Positions 182 through 10,250 of a stretch of 10,311 bases of DNA are shown here, piece after piece (the first letter of the stretch is position 1; each line of letters starts with the position of its first letter). This DNA is from an uncultured Lactobacillus sp. GTDB taxonomy: Bacteria > Bacillota > Bacilli > Lactobacillales > Lactobacillaceae. The stretch covers positions 1 to 10,311 of the forward strand of contig CALYQE010000067.1 of assembly GCA_945281075.1 (NCBI GenBank), written 5' to 3'. A model generated the notes under the pieces. The model was not told where the DNA came from. It made no database searches and was given only the letters and a program-made list of their open reading frames with translations. The position numbers and the translations under genes were made by a program.

Positions 182-1402
182 TTACTTATTGAATACTTCA
201 TAGTCAATCGCATTAACTGATTTTCCAACAATTAGCGCAGAATAGACATCAGAATTAACATTAAGAATTGTTCTGAGCATTCCAACAAACCATTCAACAC
301 CTGCAAAAATGGCAATGCTCTCAATCGGCAAACCCATCTGAGGAACTATTATCGCTAAAGAAACTAATCCAGCTCCAGGTACAACAGCATTAGCCAAAGA
401 CACAAATGTCGACATTATGATGAGATAAAGAATTTTATCAAAAGAAAAGTTAATATTATACAATTGAGCAATTGTAATCACAGTTATAGCCATATGCATT
501 GCAGACCCATTTGAATTGAGTGACATCCCCAATGGCAACACTAAGTTAGTAATTCGATCCTTTAGCCCTAAACTATTTTTGGCTTCCTTCATCTCAATTG
601 GTAAGGTAATTGCCGAAGAAGTGGTGGCTAATGCCATAATGGACATTTCAGACATATTAGTAATTAGCTTAATTGGATTTACTTTAAGGAATAAGGAGAT
701 AACAGCTATCCAAATCAATAGATAAGCAAACGTTGCAAATCCATATGAAAGCAAATACTTTATCAATGGAATAATAATTTTTATACCCAAATTACTAATT
801 GTGGAAGCAATTAAAGCAAAAATACCGATTGGAGCAAAGAACATCACACAAGTTACCAACTGAATAACGACATCATTGAAATCAATTATTAAACTAAGCA
901 ATTTTGATTGTGGCCTTTTTACCATAAATCTGCTCAATCCAATTCCAAAAAATATTGCAAAAACAATAATCTGAATAATCGTTCCTTTAGTTAAAGATGC
1001 AAAAATGTTGCTAGTGAAGAAATTCAAAACAGTATCATTTAATGAAATAGATTTAAATTTAATTACTTTACCAGTAGCTTTAGTTAACTGGATTCCAATT
1101 CCGGGTTTAAAAAGCACCCCAATTATTACTCCAAAAGCAGCTGCTAACAATGAGGAGCTTAAAAAAGTAATAATGGTTTTTATTCCCAAGTTACTTAATT
1201 CATCAGGTTTAATACTTCCAACTGCTTGAATAATTTGTCCCAGCACTAAAAGCGGAATTGACATTTGCATTAGTTTCAAAAAAATATCACCGATTATTTT
1301 TAAATGTACCGAAACATTCGGCAACACAAAAGCAAAAATTATGCCTAGAATAACTGCTATCAAAATCTGATTAACCATTGATATCTTGACTTTTTTCATC
1401 AT
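182..1402 (-). CDS. SDF/DAACS-family dicarboxylate (or related anion):cation symporter
   Basis: A 406-residue integral membrane transporter of the sodium:dicarboxylate symporter family (GltPh/DctA/GltT type), of normal length. Family marks are the first re-entrant hairpin TTSSAITLP (260-268), an NSNGS sequence (296-300) where NMDGT is usual, the second hairpin PGAGLVSLAIIVP (342-354), and the last helix with R377, T378, N381 and D385. By motif alignment to GltPh, the aspartate that holds the substrate amino group (Asp394) is Gly374 here, while the carboxylate-binding Arg397 is kept as R377. DctA, which carries C4-dicarboxylates, also lacks that aspartate, so a substrate without an amino group is more likely than glutamate or aspartate. 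It is the last gene of the operon, 18 nt after the carbamate kinase gene, with AGGTG ahead of a double ATG; the first ATG is taken as start. Import of the carbamoyl acid or export of its product is inference. Confidence 0.88.
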   Translation of the reverse strand: MMKKVKISMVNQILIAVILGIIFAFVLPNVSVHLKIIGDIFLKLMQMSIPLLVLGQIIQAVGSIKPDELSNLGIKTIITFLSSSLLAAAFGVIIGVLFKPGIGIQLTKATGKVIKFKSISLNDTVLNFFTSNIFASLTKGTIIQIIVFAIFFGIGLSRFMVKRPQSKLLSLIIDFNDVVIQLVTCVMFFAPIGIFALIASTISNLGIKIIIPLIKYLLSYGFATFAYLLIWIAVISLFLKVNPIKLITNMSEMSIMALATTSSAITLPIEMKEAKNSLGLKDRITNLVLPLGMSLNSNGSAMHMAITVITIAQLYNINFSFDKILYLIIMSTFVSLANAVVPGAGLVSLAIIVPQMGLPIESIAIFAGVEWFVGMLRTILNVNSDVYSALIVGKSVNAIDYEVFNK

Positions 1403-1420
1403 GATAGCACCTGCTTTTCT

Positions 1421-2356
1421 TTACTTATCAGTTATTAAGGTACCAGCGTTTTGAGAAATATTTGGTAAATTAGAAATTGATGTAATTATTGCCTTTCTAT
1501 CTGGATGATCCATAACAAATAAAATTGCGGCTTGAATCTTGGGTAACATACTTCCCTTCGCAAATTGTCCTTGTTTTATATATTCTTCGGCTTCAGCAAC
1601 CGTTATATGATTCAAAGCTTTTTGATTTTCTTGACCAAAATTGATATAAACACTATCTACAGCTGTTAAAATTATTAAATTATCAGCTGAAATCCCCTCT
1701 GCAACTTTCTCAGAACCAAAATCTTTATCAATAACAGCTTCTACACCTTTTATTTGATTGCCTTCTACAATAACAGGTATACCTCCACCACCTGCTACAA
1801 CCGGCACAATACCAGCATTTACAGTATCTTTAATAATATCTCTTTCGACTATTTTTATTGGTTTAGGAGAAGGTACTACTTTTCTATATCCACGACCAGC
1901 ATCTTCTATAAACATATCATTACTATTTTTTTGTAATTCAATTACTTCTTTTTTGGTATAAAAGGGGCCTATCGGCTTACTTGGAGACCTGAAAGATGGA
2001 TCATTTTTATCAACTTCAGATTGGGTAATAACCGTAAGAGATTTGATATTTTGACCAAGATCTTTAGAAGCATTATCTAGCCCTTGTTGAATCCAATAAC
2101 CAATGCTACCCTCTGTCATTGCCCCACAGGTATCAAGTCTAAAAGCAGGATTTTTCTTAGAATTAGCGGCATTCTGTTGCAACAACAAATTACCCACTTG
2201 CGGACCATTACCGTGACAAATTGCCACTTTATTTCCAGCCTTTATATATTCAACAATATATCTTGCTGCCCTATTAACCGTTTCTTTTTGCCCAATATCG
2301 GTTGGATCTTTCTCTAGAATTGCATTCCCACCTAGGGCGATTACACTAGTAGCCAT
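1421..2356 (-). CDS. arcC: Carbamate kinase
   Basis: A cytoplasmic amino-acid-kinase-fold enzyme that transfers phosphate between carbamoyl phosphate and ADP. In catabolism it makes ATP and releases carbamate, which breaks down to CO2 and ammonia. The 311 residues match the family length. Visible marks are ALGGNA (7-12), HGNGPQVG (48-55), DTCGAMTEGSIGYW (75-88), KPIGPFY (127-133), the VVPSP segment (160-164), GGGGIPVI (189-196), VIDKDFGSEKVA (208-219) and LTAVDSVYINFG (230-241). No expected motif is missing. Its ATG overlaps the stop of the MFS gene in a TAATG arrangement, with an AAGGGAG ribosome site about 13 nt upstream inside that gene. No arginine deiminase or ornithine carbamoyltransferase gene is nearby. 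Beside the FdrA/DUF1116/DUF2877 genes it is best read as the counterpart of E. coli AllK (YbcF), consuming carbamoyl phosphate made by them, rather than as part of an arginine deiminase operon. Confidence 0.95.
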   Translation of the reverse strand: MATSVIALGGNAILEKDPTDIGQKETVNRAARYIVEYIKAGNKVAICHGNGPQVGNLLLQQNAANSKKNPAFRLDTCGAMTEGSIGYWIQQGLDNASKDLGQNIKSLTVITQSEVDKNDPSFRSPSKPIGPFYTKKEVIELQKNSNDMFIEDAGRGYRKVVPSPKPIKIVERDIIKDTVNAGIVPVVAGGGGIPVIVEGNQIKGVEAVIDKDFGSEKVAEGISADNLIILTAVDSVYINFGQENQKALNHITVAEAEEYIKQGQFAKGSMLPKIQAAILFVMDHPDRKAIITSISNLPNISQNAGTLITDK

Positions 2357-3600
2357 TATACAGCTGTTTCTCCCTTCTTTGAGTCAGTTGCCAGTACAGC
2401 AAATACAATCAAGCCAATTATTAATAGACCACAGCCTAAATAAAAACCGATTTCCATTTGTCCAGTCACATCTGCTAGCCAGCCAGTGATATAAGGTGCC
2501 AAAATGGAACCTGACATACCAATAAAGTTATAAGCACTTAATGTTGTTGATAAAGAACCTGATGGAGCTTTCTTTGTAACATAGGCTACAATAATAGGAT
2601 CAATTGCCAGCTTACCGGTTAGCCCATATAAAATAAGTACTGCTATTAGCAAAACTTTATTGGAAACAAAAGCAATCGCAAATACTGAAATAATTGATAA
2701 CGGTACTAGAAGGTAGATCCATTTTTTTGTACTACCAGTTTTATCGGCTAATTTAGCAAATACTAGAGCACCCGGTATGGAAGCCCAGGGCACTAACGAA
2801 GAAATAAATCCTACACTGCCACCTTCGAATCCCCTATTGGAAATTAAAAACGATGGTAGCCAAGTAATAATTACAAAATTGGCATAAATACTACAAAAGC
2901 AAAGAACAAATGCCGCAACCAAATTTTTATTGGTGAAAATCTTTTTAAGAGAAACCTTTTCTTTTGGCTGATTCTCTGATACTTTTTCAGCCTTTTTAGG
3001 TCTATAAACTTTCTCCTTTAAACATGTATAAAATAAAACTGCCAAGATAGCTGTTGGGACAGCTACTACAAAGAAAGGAACTTTCCAACTTTGATGATTT
3101 TGTAATACTAAATAGCTTGAAAGCAGGTATCCACCAGAAGTACCAAAAGCCATACCTGAGTTGATGATTGCAGTACCAAGAGTTAACTTATCTTCTGGAA
3201 TAGCTTCTGAAGACAGTGCATATTGTGGACCATAATAGGAAGCTTGACCAACACCAGCAAGAGCTCTAATTATCAGAAATAAAGTAAAGCTAGCTGCAAT
3301 TCCTGATAACCAACTCATCACAGCTAAAACAAGAAACCCAATAGTAATCACCAATTTTCTTCCATACTTGTCACCTAACGCCCCAAATGGTACTTGGAAG
3401 ACAGCATAGGTCAAAAAGAATATGCTATTGGCTAATCCCAGCTGAGTATTATTTAAACCAAACTGTTTGCCAACGATTCCCATAATTGGATTAAAAATGG
3501 TACGCGTTCCATACATTAATATCCAACCTAAGAAGAATATAATGACGACTCTTATCCAATAGTTTTTAGAAACCTTTACGGCTTCTTCGTCGTTTTTCAT
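2356..3600 (-). CDS. Major facilitator superfamily transporter
   Basis: A 414-residue MFS permease with about 12 hydrophobic segments and a charged central loop around residues 195-222. The MFS motif A after the second membrane segment is clear (GALGDKYGRK, 73-82), with a weaker copy in the second half (FAKLADKTG, 281-289). A glycine-rich RALAGVGQ segment (112-119) fits the fourth helix. The general look resembles the anion:cation symporter (ACS) branch, which carries organic acids, but this is impression rather than proof. The ATG at 3600 is preceded by AAAGGAG (3607-3613) at 6 nt spacing. The start lies inside the end of the DUF2877 gene (35-nt overlap) and the stop shares one base with the carbamate kinase start, so it is translated as part of the operon. 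The likely role is uptake of the carbamoylated acid used by the pathway; the substrate is not deducible from sequence. Confidence 0.88.
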   Translation of the reverse strand: MKNDEEAVKVSKNYWIRVVIIFFLGWILMYGTRTIFNPIMGIVGKQFGLNNTQLGLANSIFFLTYAVFQVPFGALGDKYGRKLVITIGFLVLAVMSWLSGIAASFTLFLIIRALAGVGQASYYGPQYALSSEAIPEDKLTLGTAIINSGMAFGTSGGYLLSSYLVLQNHQSWKVPFFVVAVPTAILAVLFYTCLKEKVYRPKKAEKVSENQPKEKVSLKKIFTNKNLVAAFVLCFCSIYANFVIITWLPSFLISNRGFEGGSVGFISSLVPWASIPGALVFAKLADKTGSTKKWIYLLVPLSIISVFAIAFVSNKVLLIAVLILYGLTGKLAIDPIIVAYVTKKAPSGSLSTTLSAYNFIGMSGSILAPYITGWLADVTGQMEIGFYLGCGLLIIGLIVFAVLATDSKKGETAV

Positions 3601-4453
3601 TATTCGCTCCTTTCATAGACTCAGGAGTATTTAAACTAGCTAAAATACCCAGTTCAATCCCATAACTCAAATCATTACCCGAAGTATGGCCAATATTAAG
3701 AATGGAATTTAGCTCACGGTCTATATTTTTTAAATCATGATTTTTCAAGGATTCATATAATTGATAAACTTTGGAATTAACGTATCCTTGTGTTGCACAA
3801 ATTAGATAAGCTTTACTCACATCAGTAGTAAGACTCAGATTACTAATTATTTGTTCAATAAAGTTTGATAAATAATTAGTTGCTTTGCCAACTAATAATA
3901 GTATGAAAATGTAACCACAAAGGATATCATCACCGCTTGGCGTTAATCCCTTTCCTCTGCCAAGTAACCAAGTAACAACTTGCTCAATATTAAGATTCTT
4001 AAATGTAGTCATTTCCTCAGTAAAAGTTTTGAACAAACTATTGTTGGGTAGCCCTATTCTTTGATCTAATTTTTTTCTTTCCAGGATTTTGAGGACTTTT
4101 TTTAATTCAGCTTTTGGAAACTGACTAAACGCATTAATTTTTAAGTCAACTATATTTGAATCTACTAAACTAATCTTTTTAATCCCATCTTTGGTATAGA
4201 AGTAGAGATAATCATTTGAAAATTTAACTATTTCGTTTTTTCCCACACTATGAATAATTGATTGCAAAATGTTTTCAGGAATGTTCATCCCAAAGCAGGA
4301 CAAGTAATTCTCAAAACAGCCAATATTTACTAAGTGATAACCAATTTGAATATTAATAGAGTGGGTGAATATTGAATGTATTTTGCCTATTTTGCCAAAT
4401 TTAGTAATGGGATTAATGTAACTACTAATTTGAACAACATGAGAATTAATCAA
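3566..4453 (-). CDS. allH: DUF2877 protein, AllH/YlbF-like oxamate carbamoyltransferase subunit
   Basis: A 295-residue protein of the DUF2877 (AllH, formerly YlbF) family. The hallmark glycine-rich block is present (LLGRGKGLTPSGDDILCG, 163-180), and so is the second one (IGHTSGNDLSYGIELG, 254-269). The N-terminal 110 residues are poorly conserved to my eye. In E. coli this protein is required, with FdrA and YlbE, for oxamate carbamoyltransferase activity; its exact part in catalysis is unclear to me. The start is a TTG at 4453 that overlaps the stop of the upstream fusion gene by 8 nt. The next in-frame ATG would be codon 56 and would remove conserved-length sequence, so TTG with translational coupling is preferred. 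The end is also unusual: the last ten residues form a basic tail (EKRRRSRKGF) encoded wholly inside the start region of the MFS gene. The family call is firm, the start less so. Confidence 0.85.
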   Translation of the reverse strand: MINSHVVQISSYINPITKFGKIGKIHSIFTHSINIQIGYHLVNIGCFENYLSCFGMNIPENILQSIIHSVGKNEIVKFSNDYLYFYTKDGIKKISLVDSNIVDLKINAFSQFPKAELKKVLKILERKKLDQRIGLPNNSLFKTFTEEMTTFKNLNIEQVVTWLLGRGKGLTPSGDDILCGYIFILLLVGKATNYLSNFIEQIISNLSLTTDVSKAYLICATQGYVNSKVYQLYESLKNHDLKNIDRELNSILNIGHTSGNDLSYGIELGILASLNTPESMKGANNEKRRRSRKGF

Positions 4454-7400
4454 CTTCGATACCTAAGGTCTTAGCATAGGCTTCCAAAGCCTTTTCAAAG
4501 CAGGCTATTGGCGCTTTAACAGTACCAGCACCAATCTGACCAACACCTGGTTTTTTATGTGCAATACCTGTGTTAATAATTGGCTCAATGCCAGTTTCTA
4601 CTACTTTTCTAATATCAATGCCCAAGTTCGTGCCTTTAAAGTCCCAAGTTGGAATCGACCAATTTGGATTGTGAGTAGTATTAATCTTCTCCATGGAATT
4701 GGAAATTCTTAATGCATCTTCAAAACCGCCTGCACCAACAAATCTTGTTACACCAGGAGCTGCTACCATGGCCATACCGCCTACACCGACAGTTTCTGTA
4801 ATTGAAGAATCGCCAATGTCGGGGTTAGCGTCATCCTCTGAAAAGCCTGCAAAATAAAGGCCCTTAGGAGTATTTACAGGTGCTTTAAACCATTGGTCTC
4901 CCATACCAGCAATACGGATACCAAAATCACGTCCATTTCTAGCCATTGCAGTTACGATAGTACCTTTTTGATACTTTCTTGCAGCATCAGCAATTGACTT
5001 GCCAGTAGCCATCATAATGTTGAGGAAGAATTGATCAGTATCTGCTAAAAATTTAATTACATCGTATCTGTCTTTCTCACTAATATCTAGTTCACTAATT
5101 AGTGGCGCTATTGAACATAAGAAGTTTGCTGAAGCGGCAATATTTCTTTGATGGAACTCATCTCCCATTGTAATAGAACGTGCTATTAAGACATTTAAGT
5201 TAAGGCCATCCTCAGTTTTCTTTAAAGCTTTTGATAAGACTGGACCGAGTACATCCCTCATCCAAACTAGCCGATCAATAACTTCTTGAGAGTATGCTCC
5301 AAATCTCAAAACCTTACCTATACCTTCATTCAAGGTGCAATAAGCTCTCGTATTGTCCAATCTGTTTTCAACAATGACAACAGGCATATTTCCTGATGTA
5401 ATTCCACCCATTGGTCCGACGGCATGAACAGAATGACAAGGCATTAAACTTATTTCTCCATTTTCCAATAACTTTCGTGCCTCAATCTCATCTTTTGCCC
5501 AGCCCTCAAATATTGCTGCACCAACACATGAGCCCTGCATAGGTCCTGTCATTTCTGTATATGTAATTGGCGGTCCTGCATGCAACAATGTCTTGTGCTC
5601 AGTATTCAGTTCAGGAATAACAGTCTTAGCAGGAACTACATCAGTCAGAAACGGTTTCGCATCCTTAAATCTTTGAATTACCTTTTCATTGTCTGCGTCA
5701 ATCTTGTCATCATACTTTTCTAGTGCATCTAATAACTTAATCATCCGCTTATTACCATTAGCGCGTGGCTTCCAATTGAATTGAACAGTTTTTCCACCAT
5801 ATTTAATAATCGAATCGGTAAAACTATTAATACCAATATTAATTACTCGTGGTTTTGTAGCTAATAATTCCTTTACTTCGTTGCTAACAGTTGGTAATGC
5901 AATTTTCTTCCCTGTATATGGAATATTTGTTTTATCTGGCTCAGAAATTTGAATTCCTTTTAACTTTAATGCTAGTTGAACAGCCTTTGCATTGCTCTTC
6001 TCAACTAAAACGCCATGTTCTTTTAAGCGCTCAACTGTTTCATCATAATTTTGCGGATCTTTATTCGTTCCTACAACAGTGGCAACAAAGTATAATGGTC
6101 TGCCAGCTTTTTCAGCCTTATCAATTTCTTCATCAATTACTGGAATTAAAGCACCAGCCATATCATCGCTTGCGCCATATCCCAACACTACATCAAGTAA
6201 AATGACCCCAGTATGTGGATCCTGACAATATTCGCGCATTTTATTAATCCGAACCTCTGGATCAATCATCGGGTGTGGCTTTCCTTGGGTATAAACATCA
6301 TCTCCTAAATCAATGACATCATATCCCTCAGTTTTTAGAATATAGCCTTTTTCCTTTGTTAAATGCCCTAAGTCGAGTGCTTCAGAAATCAGCATGCCGG
6401 CTTCATTAGCCAAAGTTCCACCTGAATAGAGTCCCTTAATAGTTTTATCTTCTGCTAGTGTTTTAACATTAGCTGGTAGTTCAACTTTTTCAAAATAATT
6501 TTTTTTAACTTCTTTACCAGCTGCCAAATCAACAGCAATCTTAGCCGTTTCTTCTAATGTATGAGCTAAATAAACATTACCTTCATAATGAGTAGGTCGC
6601 TCACCTAAAAAGTCAGCAACAACGGGCTTATCACAGCTTTCAAGAATCTGCATAACTTCATCTCTAACCTTTTTTGCAGGTGGTTTAGAAATGACACAAA
6701 TCACATCCGTTGGCTCATGATCTTCTAAAGCCGCAATTGCATCTTTAACTGTAATTGCATCTACCTCATTACTTAAATCACGTCCACCGGTACCTATGGC
6801 ATGAATAACACCATTGCCCAATCTGTCAATAATGGTCGTTACTTCTTGAATTCCAGTTCCTGAAGCACCAACAATGCCAATATTTCCGGGTGAGACAACA
6901 TTAGTAAACGCCAATGGAATACTTGAAATAACACCCGTGCCACAATCAGGTCCCATCATTAGTAAGCCTTTTTTATGGGCTAATTTCTTTAATTTAACTT
7001 CATCTTCGATTGAAACATTATCCGTAAATGAGAACACATTTAAATTATGTTTCAAAGCCTTTTCCATTTCTGGAGCTCCGTATTCTCCAGGTATGCTAAA
7101 TAAAGCCAAATTCGCATCTGGCAATGCCTTTAATGCATCATCCCAATTATCAACCGCCACTGTGTCTTCATCAGATTCAGTCTTTTTAGTAGAAAGATCT
7201 TCCAGGAATGACTGAACAGTTGGTAAAACTTTATCCATAACCTCATTGTCATCACTTCTAACAACTACCATTAAATCATTGGGTGATGCAGTTTTAGCCT
7301 TCTCAGTTAACAAGCCAGTATTAGCCAAAATATCCTTATTCGCTTCAGTACCCATCATGATCTGGCTCATTTCTACATCGGCCAGCTCGTTAATCTTATT

Positions 7401-7463
7401 CGTCAATAGCATAAGATTAATTGAATCCTGATAGTTATCCTTTAAGATTACTGTCTTAAGCAT
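4446..7463 (-). CDS. fdrA: FdrA-DUF1116 (AllF-AllG) fusion, oxamate carbamoyltransferase-like
   Basis: A 1005-residue cytoplasmic protein joining two proteins that are separate in E. coli. Residues 1 to about 583 are FdrA/AllF, a succinyl-CoA synthetase-like protein: the N-terminal IMMGTEANKDIL block (35-46), CoA-binding-like parts with GPDCGTG (171-177) and GIVGASGTG (196-204), then the FdrA signature DLGDDVYTQGKPHPMIDPE (385-403). Residues about 588-1005 are DUF1116/YlbE (AllG): HAGPPI (628-633), TGPMQGSCVGAAIFEGWA (639-656), PCHSVHAVGPMGGITSG (675-691), MGDEFHQRN (766-774) and NPDIGDSSITETVGVGG (880-896). The halves match the lengths of E. coli FdrA (about 555) and YlbE (about 420), so neither is truncated and the linker is only a few residues. 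With DUF2877 these form oxamate carbamoyltransferase in E. coli, which makes carbamoyl phosphate. The ATG at 7463 sits 7 nt after GGAGGT (7471-7476). It is the first gene of the operon. The substrate here could differ from oxalurate/oxamate. Confidence 0.92.
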   Translation of the reverse strand: MLKTVILKDNYQDSINLMLLTNKINELADVEMSQIMMGTEANKDILANTGLLTEKAKTASPNDLMVVVRSDDNEVMDKVLPTVQSFLEDLSTKKTESDEDTVAVDNWDDALKALPDANLALFSIPGEYGAPEMEKALKHNLNVFSFTDNVSIEDEVKLKKLAHKKGLLMMGPDCGTGVISSIPLAFTNVVSPGNIGIVGASGTGIQEVTTIIDRLGNGVIHAIGTGGRDLSNEVDAITVKDAIAALEDHEPTDVICVISKPPAKKVRDEVMQILESCDKPVVADFLGERPTHYEGNVYLAHTLEETAKIAVDLAAGKEVKKNYFEKVELPANVKTLAEDKTIKGLYSGGTLANEAGMLISEALDLGHLTKEKGYILKTEGYDVIDLGDDVYTQGKPHPMIDPEVRINKMREYCQDPHTGVILLDVVLGYGASDDMAGALIPVIDEEIDKAEKAGRPLYFVATVVGTNKDPQNYDETVERLKEHGVLVEKSNAKAVQLALKLKGIQISEPDKTNIPYTGKKIALPTVSNEVKELLATKPRVINIGINSFTDSIIKYGGKTVQFNWKPRANGNKRMIKLLDALEKYDDKIDADNEKVIQRFKDAKPFLTDVVPAKTVIPELNTEHKTLLHAGPPITYTEMTGPMQGSCVGAAIFEGWAKDEIEARKLLENGEISLMPCHSVHAVGPMGGITSGNMPVVIVENRLDNTRAYCTLNEGIGKVLRFGAYSQEVIDRLVWMRDVLGPVLSKALKKTEDGLNLNVLIARSITMGDEFHQRNIAASANFLCSIAPLISELDISEKDRYDVIKFLADTDQFFLNIMMATGKSIADAARKYQKGTIVTAMARNGRDFGIRIAGMGDQWFKAPVNTPKGLYFAGFSEDDANPDIGDSSITETVGVGGMAMVAAPGVTRFVGAGGFEDALRISNSMEKINTTHNPNWSIPTWDFKGTNLGIDIRKVVETGIEPIINTGIAHKKPGVGQIGAGTVKAPIACFEKALEAYAKTLGIEVD

Positions 7464-7470
7464 TTTTCAT

Positions 7471-7476
7471 ACCTCC
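7471..7476 (-). promoter_or_regulatory. Ribosome binding site of the fdrA fusion
   Basis: The minus strand reads GGAGGT here, then 7 nt, then the ATG at 7463. An ATG directly after the GGAGGT (at 7470) is out of frame, reaches a stop after four codons and is too close to the site to be used. This fixes 7463 as the start. Confidence 0.85.
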
Positions 7477-7492
7477 AATTTGTTAATTTTTT

Positions 7493-7508
7493 TACAATTT
7501 AAATTGTA
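7493..7508. promoter_or_regulatory. 16-bp perfect palindrome, candidate operator
   Basis: TACAATTTAAATTGTA is a perfect inverted repeat. Its right arm covers the -10 element of the operon promoter and extends over the expected start region, while it also overlaps the -35 of the opposite promoter. Related half-sites recur at 7511-7516 (ATTGTA) and 7527-7532 (TACAAT). It is a plausible binding site for the divergent PucR-type regulator. The alternative is that the hexamers are just promoter elements in an AT-rich stretch. Confidence 0.45.
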
Positions 7509-7531
7509 TGATTGTATAGAAGCGCTTACAA
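7503..7531 (-). promoter_or_regulatory. Promoter of the carbamoyl-transfer operon
   Basis: On the minus strand TTGTAA (7531-7526, 4 of 6 to TTGACA) and TACAAT (7508-7503, 5 of 6 to TATAAT) are separated by exactly 17 nt. Transcription would start near 7496 and leave a leader of about 33 nt before the fusion gene. The elements coincide base for base with those of the opposing promoter, so polymerase can occupy only one at a time. Confidence 0.6.
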
Positions 7532-7532
7532 T
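7504..7532 (+). promoter_or_regulatory. Promoter of the pucR-like gene and hydrolase
   Basis: On the plus strand TTGTAT (7504-7509, 4 of 6) and TACAAT (7527-7532, 5 of 6) are 17 nt apart, giving a start near 7539 and a leader of about 65 nt. No better pair of hexamers with a good spacer was found between 7533 and the ribosome site. It is the near mirror image of the operon promoter on the other strand. Confidence 0.5.
7517..7530. promoter_or_regulatory. cre-like catabolite responsive element
   Basis: TAGAAGCGCTTACA agrees with 12 of 14 positions of the CcpA-binding consensus TGWAARCGYTWNCW, including the whole AARCGYT core. It lies in the spacer of both promoters and overlaps the operon -35, a position that normally gives repression when a preferred sugar is present. 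Carbon control of a catabolic operon fits this reading. Confidence 0.65.
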
Positions 7533-7591
7533 GGATAAAAAGTAAATCTATTTGGAAGATTTTTAGCCAAATGGACAAAGGAAAATAATTT

Positions 7592-7597
7592 AAGGAG
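7592..7597 (+). promoter_or_regulatory. Ribosome binding site of the PucR-like regulator
   Basis: AAGGAG lies 7 nt before the ATG at 7605 and clearly marks that codon as the start. Confidence 0.85.
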
Positions 7598-7604
7598 ATT
7601 TAAT

Positions 7605-9185
7605 ATGAAACTATACGATCTGCTAGAATTACCAATTTTCAAAGAAAGCAAAATTTTAACACCAAAATTGGAAAGAAATACTGAAATTAAGTCTGTAATG
7701 GTTTTAGAGGCTTTAGATATTGAAAAATGGTCACGCAAAAATCAAATCATTTTGACCTCTTTTTATGCATTAAAGCAATTATCGCCCGATGAGATGAATA
7801 CTTTTTTTGAAAAGATGGTACGGATCGGGATTAGTGGAATTATCGTGAAAGTTGATCGACTGATTAAACAAGTACCAAATTGGTTTATAGACCTTTGCTA
7901 TCAAAATAAAATTCCGTTAATCAAAGTGGGTACGGAGTTAAATTATGAACAAATAATATTAGCCATCTATCAGCCAATTTTAAATAATCAATCGTTAGTC
8001 TTGGAGAACTACTATAAAACAAGACAAAGATTAATACCTTTAGCTGATAGTCTAGCTTCTTACCAAGTTTTAGTAGCCGAATTTAATAATATAACTCACT
8101 ATCCTTGCTCGTTATATTTAGCTTCAAACTCAACCTCTTATAAAAGCAAAGATATGCCTGAAAAAATGGTAATTAAGGAAAGGAGTCCCTATACAGAAGA
8201 AGATTCTGAATTTGTGAAAAACAAATATTTTTTGTACACTCTTGAATCTTTGGCTACAAATCAAATATATAACGCCACAAGAATTGAGTTTTCAACGAAT
8301 AATGTTAATCAACGTAATTCACTCTTAGTAATTCATAAAACTCAAAAATTAAGTGAATCAGAGACAATGATTTTCGAAAATTTCATTGATATTATTCAGA
8401 ATAAATTACAAACAGAATATGCTTTAAAGCAAAAAGAGTACGCCCACTTAAATAATATTGCAGATGCGATTTTGCAATACCCACTTTTGGATGAAAGAGA
8501 GCTTGATACACTGCTAGATGAAGTAAATTTAAATCATTACAAGTATTATCAAGCTTGTGCTTTTTTTACTACTAATTTGAGTAAAATGGATCTTTATAAT
8601 ATTCGAGCAATACTTCAAGGACTTAAGCGCTACAGCATTTACTCAGAACACCACGACTATATGATCATTCTTTTTAATATTGAAAGTCACTCTGATCAGT
8701 TAGATTCTGCACTAATAAAAAAGAAGTTGTCTAAGTATTTTCAAAAGCGTTCAAGTCTTTCAATTGTAATTAGCTTTATTAAGACAAAAAATAACTTGCA
8801 AACCATTTTAGATGAATGCTTGCAGGCCTTGAGTTTTAACGCAAAAATTTTTATTAATTATGTTTTCTCAATTGAAAGACTAGGTATATTTAGATATTTC
8901 TTGTCAATCAAAGACCCTAGCACTTTAAATAAATTCATCCCTCAAAATTTAATAGATTTGAAAAAAGATAATTATGATTTATTTAAAACGCTAAAAATAT
9001 TTTTTGACACAAATAAAAATTACAAAAAAGCTGCTGAACTATTATTTGTACACGAAAAAACCGTCCGCTACAGGATTAAAAAGATTCAAGGTTTATTAGA
9101 TCTTGATCTTGAAAACCAAACTGAACTAATCAATTATCAAATCTCAACTTATTTACTTAGTATGGAGAAAAATAATGAAACATAA
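7605..9185 (+). CDS. PucR-family transcriptional regulator
   Basis: A 526-residue cytoplasmic DNA-binding protein with the architecture and length of Bacillus PucR (about 530). Residues 1 to about 125 resemble the PucR/PurC-like N-terminal domain, with its LEALDIEKW (34-42) and GISGIIVKVDR (75-85) segments. The middle (about 280-420) fits the CdaR/GGDEF-like region found in this family. The C-terminus has the typical PucR-type helix-turn-helix, NYKKAAELLFVHEKTVRYRIKK at about 472-493. Family members control use of purines, allantoin, sugar acids and similar compounds, often by sensing a pathway metabolite. It is divergent from the carbamoyl-transfer operon and shares its promoter DNA, so it is the natural candidate regulator of that operon and of itself. 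Whether it activates or represses cannot be read from sequence. The next gene overlaps its last 11 bases. Confidence 0.92.
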   Translation: MKLYDLLELPIFKESKILTPKLERNTEIKSVMVLEALDIEKWSRKNQIILTSFYALKQLSPDEMNTFFEKMVRIGISGIIVKVDRLIKQVPNWFIDLCYQNKIPLIKVGTELNYEQIILAIYQPILNNQSLVLENYYKTRQRLIPLADSLASYQVLVAEFNNITHYPCSLYLASNSTSYKSKDMPEKMVIKERSPYTEEDSEFVKNKYFLYTLESLATNQIYNATRIEFSTNNVNQRNSLLVIHKTQKLSESETMIFENFIDIIQNKLQTEYALKQKEYAHLNNIADAILQYPLLDERELDTLLDEVNLNHYKYYQACAFFTTNLSKMDLYNIRAILQGLKRYSIYSEHHDYMIILFNIESHSDQLDSALIKKKLSKYFQKRSSLSIVISFIKTKNNLQTILDECLQALSFNAKIFINYVFSIERLGIFRYFLSIKDPSTLNKFIPQNLIDLKKDNYDLFKTLKIFFDTNKNYKKAAELLFVHEKTVRYRIKKIQGLLDLDLENQTELINYQISTYLLSMEKNNET

Positions 9186-9990
9186 TATGCAAAAATTATC
9201 CAATTCAATGCAATGTACTTTATGGTACCCTAGCACCCCAACATCAACTATCTTAATTTACTTTCATGGTGGCGGATTAATATATGGCACGCGTAATGAC
9301 TTACCCTCTGCTTTAACTAATATTTTCCTAAAAAAACAGATAGAAGTTATTGCACTAGATTATCCACTAGCTCCAAACTCTTCTTTAAGTAAAATTTTAG
9401 AAACAACTTTCCAGTCATTTAAAGAGCTATATAAAAAAGTAATCGAACCACATAATTTTAATTACATATTATGTGGCCGCTCTGCTGGAGGTTTTATTAT
9501 GTTTTGGTTGGCCAATCAGATTCTCAAATTAAGCCAAATAAAAAAGCCTACCAAAATTATCAATTTCTATGGTTACTATGACTTGAAAGACGCTAATCGA
9601 GCAAAAAAATTATCGACTACGACTATTTCAAAAGAGCTTATACAATCAATAGATACAAAAAATTTTATTCATGATGATTCTGCTTTATCTCGCTATCTTT
9701 TATATTTATATCTTGCTGAACAAGGTGATTTGTTAAAAGCTTATGGCGTTAACGAAAATGAAGTAAGCAAATATTCAATTACCATAGACGAATTAAAAAA
9801 TTTCCCTCCTATTTTTTCCGCTGCAAGTACAACAGATAAAGAGGTACCCTTTAGCTACAGTAAGTCATTAAAACAACTTTCCCAATATAACGTTTTTTAT
9901 CCACTTTATTATTTAGATCACGATTTTCTAAAAGAAATTAATAACCCACAAGTACAAAAAGTCTTAAAAAGTCTTGCAAATTGGATTTAG
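9175..9990 (+). CDS. Alpha/beta hydrolase, HSL-like esterase family
   Basis: A 271-residue soluble alpha/beta hydrolase. It carries the oxyanion-hole HGGG motif (31-34) after a hydrophobic strand, DYPLAP (62-67), the nucleophile elbow GRSAGG with Ser103 (101-106), a likely acid Asp221 (TTDKEVP) and a likely base His249 (LDHDF). The triad therefore looks complete. This pattern fits the carboxylesterase/lipase branch related to hormone-sensitive lipase (Abhydrolase_3); there is no signal peptide. The start at 9175 has GGAG (9164-9167) at 7 nt spacing inside the end of the regulator gene. The second ATG at 9187 has no such site. The 11-nt overlap implies coupled expression with the regulator. 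The substrate is unknown. An ester or amide that yields the carbamoyl acid, or a detoxifying role, are both possible. Confidence 0.85.
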   Translation: MKHNMQKLSNSMQCTLWYPSTPTSTILIYFHGGGLIYGTRNDLPSALTNIFLKKQIEVIALDYPLAPNSSLSKILETTFQSFKELYKKVIEPHNFNYILCGRSAGGFIMFWLANQILKLSQIKKPTKIINFYGYYDLKDANRAKKLSTTTISKELIQSIDTKNFIHDDSALSRYLLYLYLAEQGDLLKAYGVNENEVSKYSITIDELKNFPPIFSAASTTDKEVPFSYSKSLKQLSQYNVFYPLYYLDHDFLKEINNPQVQKVLKSLANWI

Positions 9991-10174: not shown

Positions 10175-10213
10175 AAAAAATACATGATCTAGATAAAACA
10201 TCTAAATCATGTA
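10175..10213 (-). terminator. Rho-independent terminator of the minus-strand gene ending at 10251
   Basis: Bases 10181-10194 pair with 10200-10213 over 14 bp with a 5-nt loop. In minus-strand RNA the one irregular pair is a G-U wobble, so the stem is continuous, and it is followed by six T (10180-10175). In plus-strand RNA the same position is a C-A mismatch and no T-run follows. It therefore acts mainly on the minus strand, 37 nt after the stop codon. Confidence 0.85.
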
Positions 10214-10250
10214 CTACAAAACAATTATTATTATCAAACCTTAATACATT

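Follow-up and report, generated by a model that had tools for sequence, protein, structure and literature searches.

A stand-alone gene cluster for a probable oxamate transcarbamylase, with an alpha/beta hydrolase partner, in an uncultured Lactobacillus

We analysed a 10,311-nucleotide stretch of DNA (the window) from contig CALYQE010000067.1 of an uncultured Lactobacillus sp. (genome G000), in which positions 182-9990 hold a seven-gene set for an oxamate transcarbamylase (oxamate carbamoyltransferase), a carbamate kinase, two carriers, a PucR-family regulator and an alpha/beta hydrolase. Judging from the sequences, the whole cluster probably forms an oxalurate fermentation module, which would import oxalurate, a compound derived from urate, cleave it by phosphorolysis and gain one ATP. 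As a pathway it is of an ordinary kind; what is unusual is its compact, stand-alone form. One partner gene, that of the hydrolase, is well supported and unexplained. The same kind of gene set also occurs in other gut and food bacteria, Enterococcus faecalis among them.

The genes form two divergent arms. Five are transcribed leftward, in the order AllF-AllG fusion, AllH, major facilitator superfamily (MFS) carrier, carbamate kinase and SDF carrier, while two are transcribed rightward, the PucR regulator followed by the hydrolase. Inside each arm, adjacent genes overlap or lie at most 18 bp apart. The nearest named relative, Lactobacillus sp. W8174 (genome G397), on which our assignment to the genus is based, has the identical seven-gene order, with 69-94% identity.

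Transcarbamylase, carbamate kinase and carriers

AllF and AllG constitute a single fused protein of 1005 residues (AllFG; positions 4446-7463, minus strand), with an AllF (FdrA) domain (NF004760, 674.8 bits, cut-off 433; PF00549 and PF02629) and an AllG domain (PF06545, 312 bits, cut-off 27). The gene of the third subunit, AllH (3566-4453, minus strand, TTG start; PF11392, 100 bits, cut-off 25), overlaps that of AllFG by 8 bp. An earlier note on this DNA had recognized FdrA, DUF1116, DUF2877 and carbamate kinase as the Escherichia coli set; all four are present, FdrA and DUF1116 being one protein instead of two. The AllG half shares 61% identity with E. coli AllG as against 42% with its paralogue YahG, and the AllF half is 39% identical to E. 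coli AllF and equally to YahF, the longer and stronger match being AllF. Using BLAST, residues 164-269 of AllH alone align with E. coli AllH, at 37% identity. Between the window and W8174, AllH is 69% identical, below the other six genes (77-94%). Its predicted structure has a mean predicted local distance difference test (pLDDT) score of 93.5, yet Foldseek returned no PDB match at E <= 0.001.

The AllF half is similar to the alpha chain of succinyl-CoA synthetase, an enzyme that makes an acyl phosphate. In the Ligase_CoA domain of that chain, we take SucD His247 to be the phosphohistidine. The corresponding column is Glu in 79/79 AllF rows, E. coli AllF and YahF included (Glu354 in the window); a phosphohistidine step is thus unlikely in AllF, and we therefore infer that phosphate attacks the carbamoyl group directly, a reaction in which Glu354 may have a role. 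Pfam assigned CoA_binding, Ligase_CoA and AllG domains alone to AllFG, and no OTCace domain. An arginine or agmatine deiminase module was also considered and rejected, since the window holds no enzyme of the ornithine transcarbamylase (OTCase) fold. The gene for oxamate transcarbamylase was unidentified as of 2012 (PMC3282769), and E. coli AllFGH was identified as this enzyme in 2024 (PMC11326118). Our literature search found no report that ties the activity to a Firmicutes gene cluster.

The carbamate kinase of the ArcC/AllK type (1421-2356, minus strand) scores 377.2 bits against the arcC model TIGR00746 (cut-off 358.25), and it is the only carbamate kinase found at E <= 1e-30 in G000, as is its counterpart in G397. 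A putrescine-carbamoyltransferase-like gene on another G000 contig, C4 (L130:919-1938; 451 bits, cut-off 500), coexists with this single detected kinase.

The carriers belong to the SDF (DAACS) family of carboxylate carriers (182-1402, minus strand; PF00375, 338 bits) and to the MFS (2356-3600, minus strand; PF07690, 200 bits). Together with the PucR regulator they are packed with the transcarbamylase genes at 182-9185, in agreement with the earlier note. The MFS carrier cluster is also present in 11 of 28 allantoin loci. In the SDF carrier, Gly374 occupies the position of the amino-group-binding Asp of glutamate carriers, and their carboxylate-binding Arg is retained as Arg377. Across an alignment of 47 SDF proteins, the Asp position is Gly in 46, the Arg is retained in 45 and the sodium-site Asp is replaced by Asn in 42. 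Gly for Asp together with the retained Arg would fit a carboxylate substrate that has no amino group, for example oxalurate or oxamate.

Distribution of the gene set

Neither G000 nor G397 has a match to AllB over the curated cut-off, to AllD at E <= 1e-60, to AllC at E <= 1e-40 or to AllE at E <= 1e-5; the search covered AllB to AllE, and AllA was not searched. The absence of ureide-degradation genes claimed for the window thus holds genome-wide for these four genes, which is the outcome of the genome search that the earlier note had proposed, and the reading of the set as a stand-alone module that yields carbamoyl phosphate and brings its own carbamate kinase and carriers is supported. The same result led us to reject an allantoin pathway on other G000 contigs.

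To place the set among its relatives, we used the best 80 of 269 related stretches. Three (L052, L086 and L091), in which a simple gene caller found no intact AllFG, were dropped, leaving 77 loci; class labels in the locus counts and in the tree described below refer to the fetched stretch and not to the whole genome. AllB, AllC and AllD were then searched in 46 genomes, namely G000 plus those of 45 of the 80 related stretches, picked for stand-alone, c13-bearing (c13 is described below) or AllD-only neighbourhoods and including L031, which has allantoin genes; L053, L068, L079, L081 and L094 have the same kinds of neighbourhood and lie outside this test. None of the three proteins was found over cut-off in 28 of the 46 genomes, while AllD was found in 18, AllC in 11 and AllB in 5. 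Six of the 28 (G416, G422, G429, G430, G439 and G440) have AllC-like matches below cut-off, the best at 250-304 bits, and another of them, G434, has an AllB-like match that scores 338 bits, short of the cut-off of 358. At E <= 0.001, each of the 46 genomes shows at least one AllB-like match, and so does each of the 14 control genomes. The stand-alone module is therefore common and not peculiar to the window: a range of Firmicutes, lactic acid bacteria included, carry the ATP-yielding end of the pathway without AllB, AllC or AllD.

Among Lactobacillaceae, AllG was found in 15 of 397 sampled genomes and was absent from 20/20 listed genomes of the window's genus. The neighbourhoods of 12 of the 15 were viewed. 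Nine have the fused AllFG with no AllB, AllC, AllD or AllE in the stretch (in one of them, G304, the AllF part lies in two frames), and three have split AllF and AllG within an allantoin cluster. We put the remaining genomes, G182, G201 and G305, whose stretches were not fetched, in the split group as well, from open-frame lengths of 420. An aspartate-glyoxylate-aminotransferase-like gene, c14, recurs by allantoin clusters (L023:274-1488 and L113:16474-17700).

One genome, G442, is identifiable as E. faecalis from its proteins. One of its proteins shares 99% identity across 265 residues with PDB 2qru, titled E. faecalis alpha/beta hydrolase, and in its putrescine carbamoyltransferase 338 of 339 residues match those of PDB 4a8h, which we take to be the entry for that E. 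faecalis enzyme. The structure of the E. faecalis putrescine carbamoyltransferase is described in PMC3282769. The G442 cluster comprises hydrolase-PucR and, divergently, AllFG-AllH-MFS-carbamate kinase-SDF-AllD-c12-c13. G442 also carries an AllE gene elsewhere, so that ureide genes are not absent from it. Of its four carbamate kinases, two, at 115 kb and 2.17 Mb, each adjoin an OTCase-fold gene, one lies in the vicinity of the putrescine enzyme, and one belongs to the module. Streptococcus faecalis is credited with an oxalurate catabolic pathway and with a third carbamate kinase in the title of a 1986 study, as cited in PMC6022934; the module's kinase in G442 is the natural candidate for this third enzyme. 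Extracts of S. faecalis ATCC 11700, S. allantoicus and Streptococcus D10 have shown oxamate transcarbamylase activity, as PMC11326118 recounts. A pathway assayed in enterococci and streptococci since the 1960s is hereby tied to a concrete gene cluster.

The proteins c12, which is permease-like and has no Pfam match, and c13, a cytosine-deaminase-like amidohydrolase, both recur with the module (for example, as pairs at L028:13986-16589 and L142:4832-7501). c13 occurs in 12 of the 77 loci, 11 without AllB, AllC, AllE or AllD in the stretch and one with AllD; in at least six of the 11, AllD lies elsewhere in the genome. It is located near the module in six of the nine fused Lactobacillaceae loci, and nothing like it was found at E <= 1e-5 in G000 or G397. 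c13 may act by opening the ring of a cyclic ureide, for instance parabanate. The occurrence of c13 and AllD in one E. faecalis cluster fits two sources of one compound, oxalurate.

Substrate and rival explanations

Oxalurate is our best guess for the substrate because AllG resembles E. coli AllG and E. faecalis bears a similar cluster. In the proposed pathway, ready-made oxalurate would enter via a carboxylate carrier (SDF or MFS), and phosphate, on AllFG-AllH, would attack its carbamoyl group to give carbamoyl phosphate and oxamate. Carbamate kinase would then transfer the phosphate to ADP, so that each oxalurate would give the cell one ATP together with ammonia and CO2. Oxamate, an inhibitor of lactate dehydrogenase, probably leaves by the second carrier. 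The PucR protein would govern the divergent promoters, and the hydrolase may act on a product or precursor of the transcarbamylase step. According to PMC11326118, lysates with the E. coli oxamate transcarbamylase were inactive towards oxalurate at pH 6 and 7, which speaks mildly against the role in acid tolerance that had been suggested for the set.

In a tree of 80 sequences, a quick one in which the E. coli branches are long, the stand-alone AllFG rows are placed among AllD-bearing, c13-bearing and allantoin rows. To us, this mixing suggests that one pathway was cut back repeatedly to the final step, which yields the energy, and not that the substrate was switched once. Several points weigh against oxalurate. 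The 28 stand-alone rows require 15 label changes as against a mean of 23.1 in shuffles, none of 500 of which was as low; the label is thus clustered in the tree beyond the shuffles, as would be expected if the substrate had shifted in some of its branches. The mere 39% identity of the AllF half makes such a shift possible. The residues of the SDF carrier, whose roles are carried over from glutamate carriers, would also fit N-carbamoylaspartate. Finally, G000 lacks both AllD and c13, by which oxalurate could be made, and an outside supply has to be assumed for it; stand-alone clusters would imply a supply of oxalurate, or of a close precursor, where their hosts live.

The earlier note had suggested that the true substrate may not be oxalurate. 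The same chemistry on a different N-carbamoyl acid, for example N-carbamoylaspartate or one derived from some other cyclic ureide, would agree with the 11 loci in which c13 is found without AllB, AllC, AllE or AllD in the stretch, though at least six of those genomes carry AllD elsewhere, with the related E. coli yah set, which includes YahJ, and with the annotation of E. coli DctA, of the SDF family, for dicarboxylates and orotate. We nevertheless consider it unlikely, given the closeness of AllG to E. coli AllG and not to YahG, the intermixing of stand-alone and AllD-bearing rows and the joint presence of c13 and AllD in the E. faecalis cluster.

Two further explanations leave the substrate aside. 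Carbamoyl phosphate is a precursor of pyrimidines and arginine and the carbamate kinase reaction is reversible, so that the set could salvage nitrogen or carbamoyl phosphate for these syntheses instead of yielding energy. This is highly improbable in view of the kinase itself, which matches the arcC model, lies in the operon and is the sole one found in the genome. Sites resembling the catabolite responsive element (cre), with at most one mismatch, also argue against salvage: of 52 upstream regions, 23 contain one, where mononucleotide shuffles would predict 0.7, the regions being related and thus not independent. The window is among the 52, but its site, with two mismatches, falls outside this limit. 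The sites upstream of the relatives suggest carbon catabolite control. Also highly improbable is a remnant of an ordinary allantoin pathway whose other genes the assembly lacks. Such a gap would be conceivable, G000 being 94% complete and split into 117 contigs, of which the one with the window has just 10,561 bases, but the sister genome G397 likewise lacks AllB, AllC, AllD and AllE over cut-off, and 28 of the 46 genomes lack the first three. Oxalurate fermentation remains our preferred reading.

Hydrolase, regulatory sites and known systems

The alpha/beta hydrolase (Abhydrolase_3, PF07859; 9175-9990, plus strand) was unnamed in the earlier note. Its gene overlaps the end of the divergent pucR (7605-9185, plus strand; PF07905 and PF13556). 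AllG is present in all 55 hydrolase-positive Enterococcaceae genomes and in all 14 hydrolase-positive Lactobacillaceae genomes, while the hydrolase reached threshold in none of 427 genomes without AllG (Fisher values about 2e-24 and 7e-25, relatedness ignored). It is below threshold in 5 of 60 AllG-positive Enterococcaceae genomes and in G372, absent from the fetched stretch in 12 of the 77 loci, and not found in the E. coli all region. Based on these genome counts, it is well supported that the hydrolase tracks AllG and is a near-constant partner of the module, an association that is new here.

The HGG motif and the triad Ser103-Asp221-His249, whose columns were assigned from the fold family, are conserved in 63/63 sequences. 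Hormone-sensitive-lipase-like hydrolases have an acidic residue before the nucleophile (G-D/E-S-A-G). This residue is absent from the 63 sequences, all of which have Arg102 before Ser103, as does 2qru. The latter is the structure closest to the hydrolase model (41% identity, TM-score 0.94), so that this conserved, uncharacterised partner already has a structure in the PDB. Hydrolysis of oxamate or of parabanate are candidate reactions. More specifically, and tentatively, the hydrolase might be a fourth working part of the Firmicutes oxamate transcarbamylase system, e.g., an oxamate amidohydrolase of a new family; the reaction, oxamate to oxalate and ammonia, is a guess. Arg102 would then hold the substrate carboxylate, and the enzyme would remove an inhibitor of lactate dehydrogenase and double the ammonia yield.

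Upstream of AllFG, we located a sigma-70-like promoter, TTGTAA-17-TACAAT (7503-7531, minus strand), in a scan whose sites were overall no more numerous than in shuffles, and the weak cre-like stretch at 7517-7530. A terminator-like hairpin at 52-85, which could serve either strand, is the likely end of the minus-strand operon, while that at 10179-10215 (minus strand) would terminate transcripts that enter leftward from the right-hand side. The scan gave 10 terminator-like sites, as compared with 4.7 +/- 1.9 in shuffles. The claim that terminators bound the set on both sides would hold on the left, whereas on the right the hairpin points leftward and is no obvious end for the pucR-hydrolase arm. 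The contig extends 250 bases beyond the left end of the window and stops at its right end.

Among known systems, E. coli AllFGH and AllK resemble the window in having the same three protein families and a carbamate kinase in one operon; the window differs in its fused AllF-AllG, its own carriers, its PucR control and its hydrolase. Unlike the anaerobic allantoin pathway of E. coli, G000 has no AllB, AllC, AllD or AllE over cut-off. Transcarbamylases of the OTCase and aspartate transcarbamylase (ATCase) fold are another family, the AllFG of the window being devoid of the OTCace domain; a known system with a transcarbamylase of another family operates in a similar way, a ureido compound being phosphorolysed before carbamate kinase acts. 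In the E. coli yahEFGIJ set, yahE, yahF, yahG, yahI and yahJ, which resemble AllH, AllF, AllG, carbamate kinase and c13, respectively, lie side by side; YahG is just 42% identical to the AllG of the window, AllF and AllG are unfused in E. coli, and our literature search found no function for this set. A further group of Enterococcaceae AllG proteins, with frames of about 479-508 residues and lower scores (e.g., G442:C1:2560883), may be of the yah type. The likeness to the oxalurate pathway of S. (Enterococcus) faecalis ATCC 11700 is drawn via the G442 cluster and not via the ATCC 11700 genome. Compared with the window, G442 has AllD, c12 and c13 in addition within the cluster, and AllE elsewhere, and its 2qru hydrolase occupies the same gene position as the hydrolase of the window.

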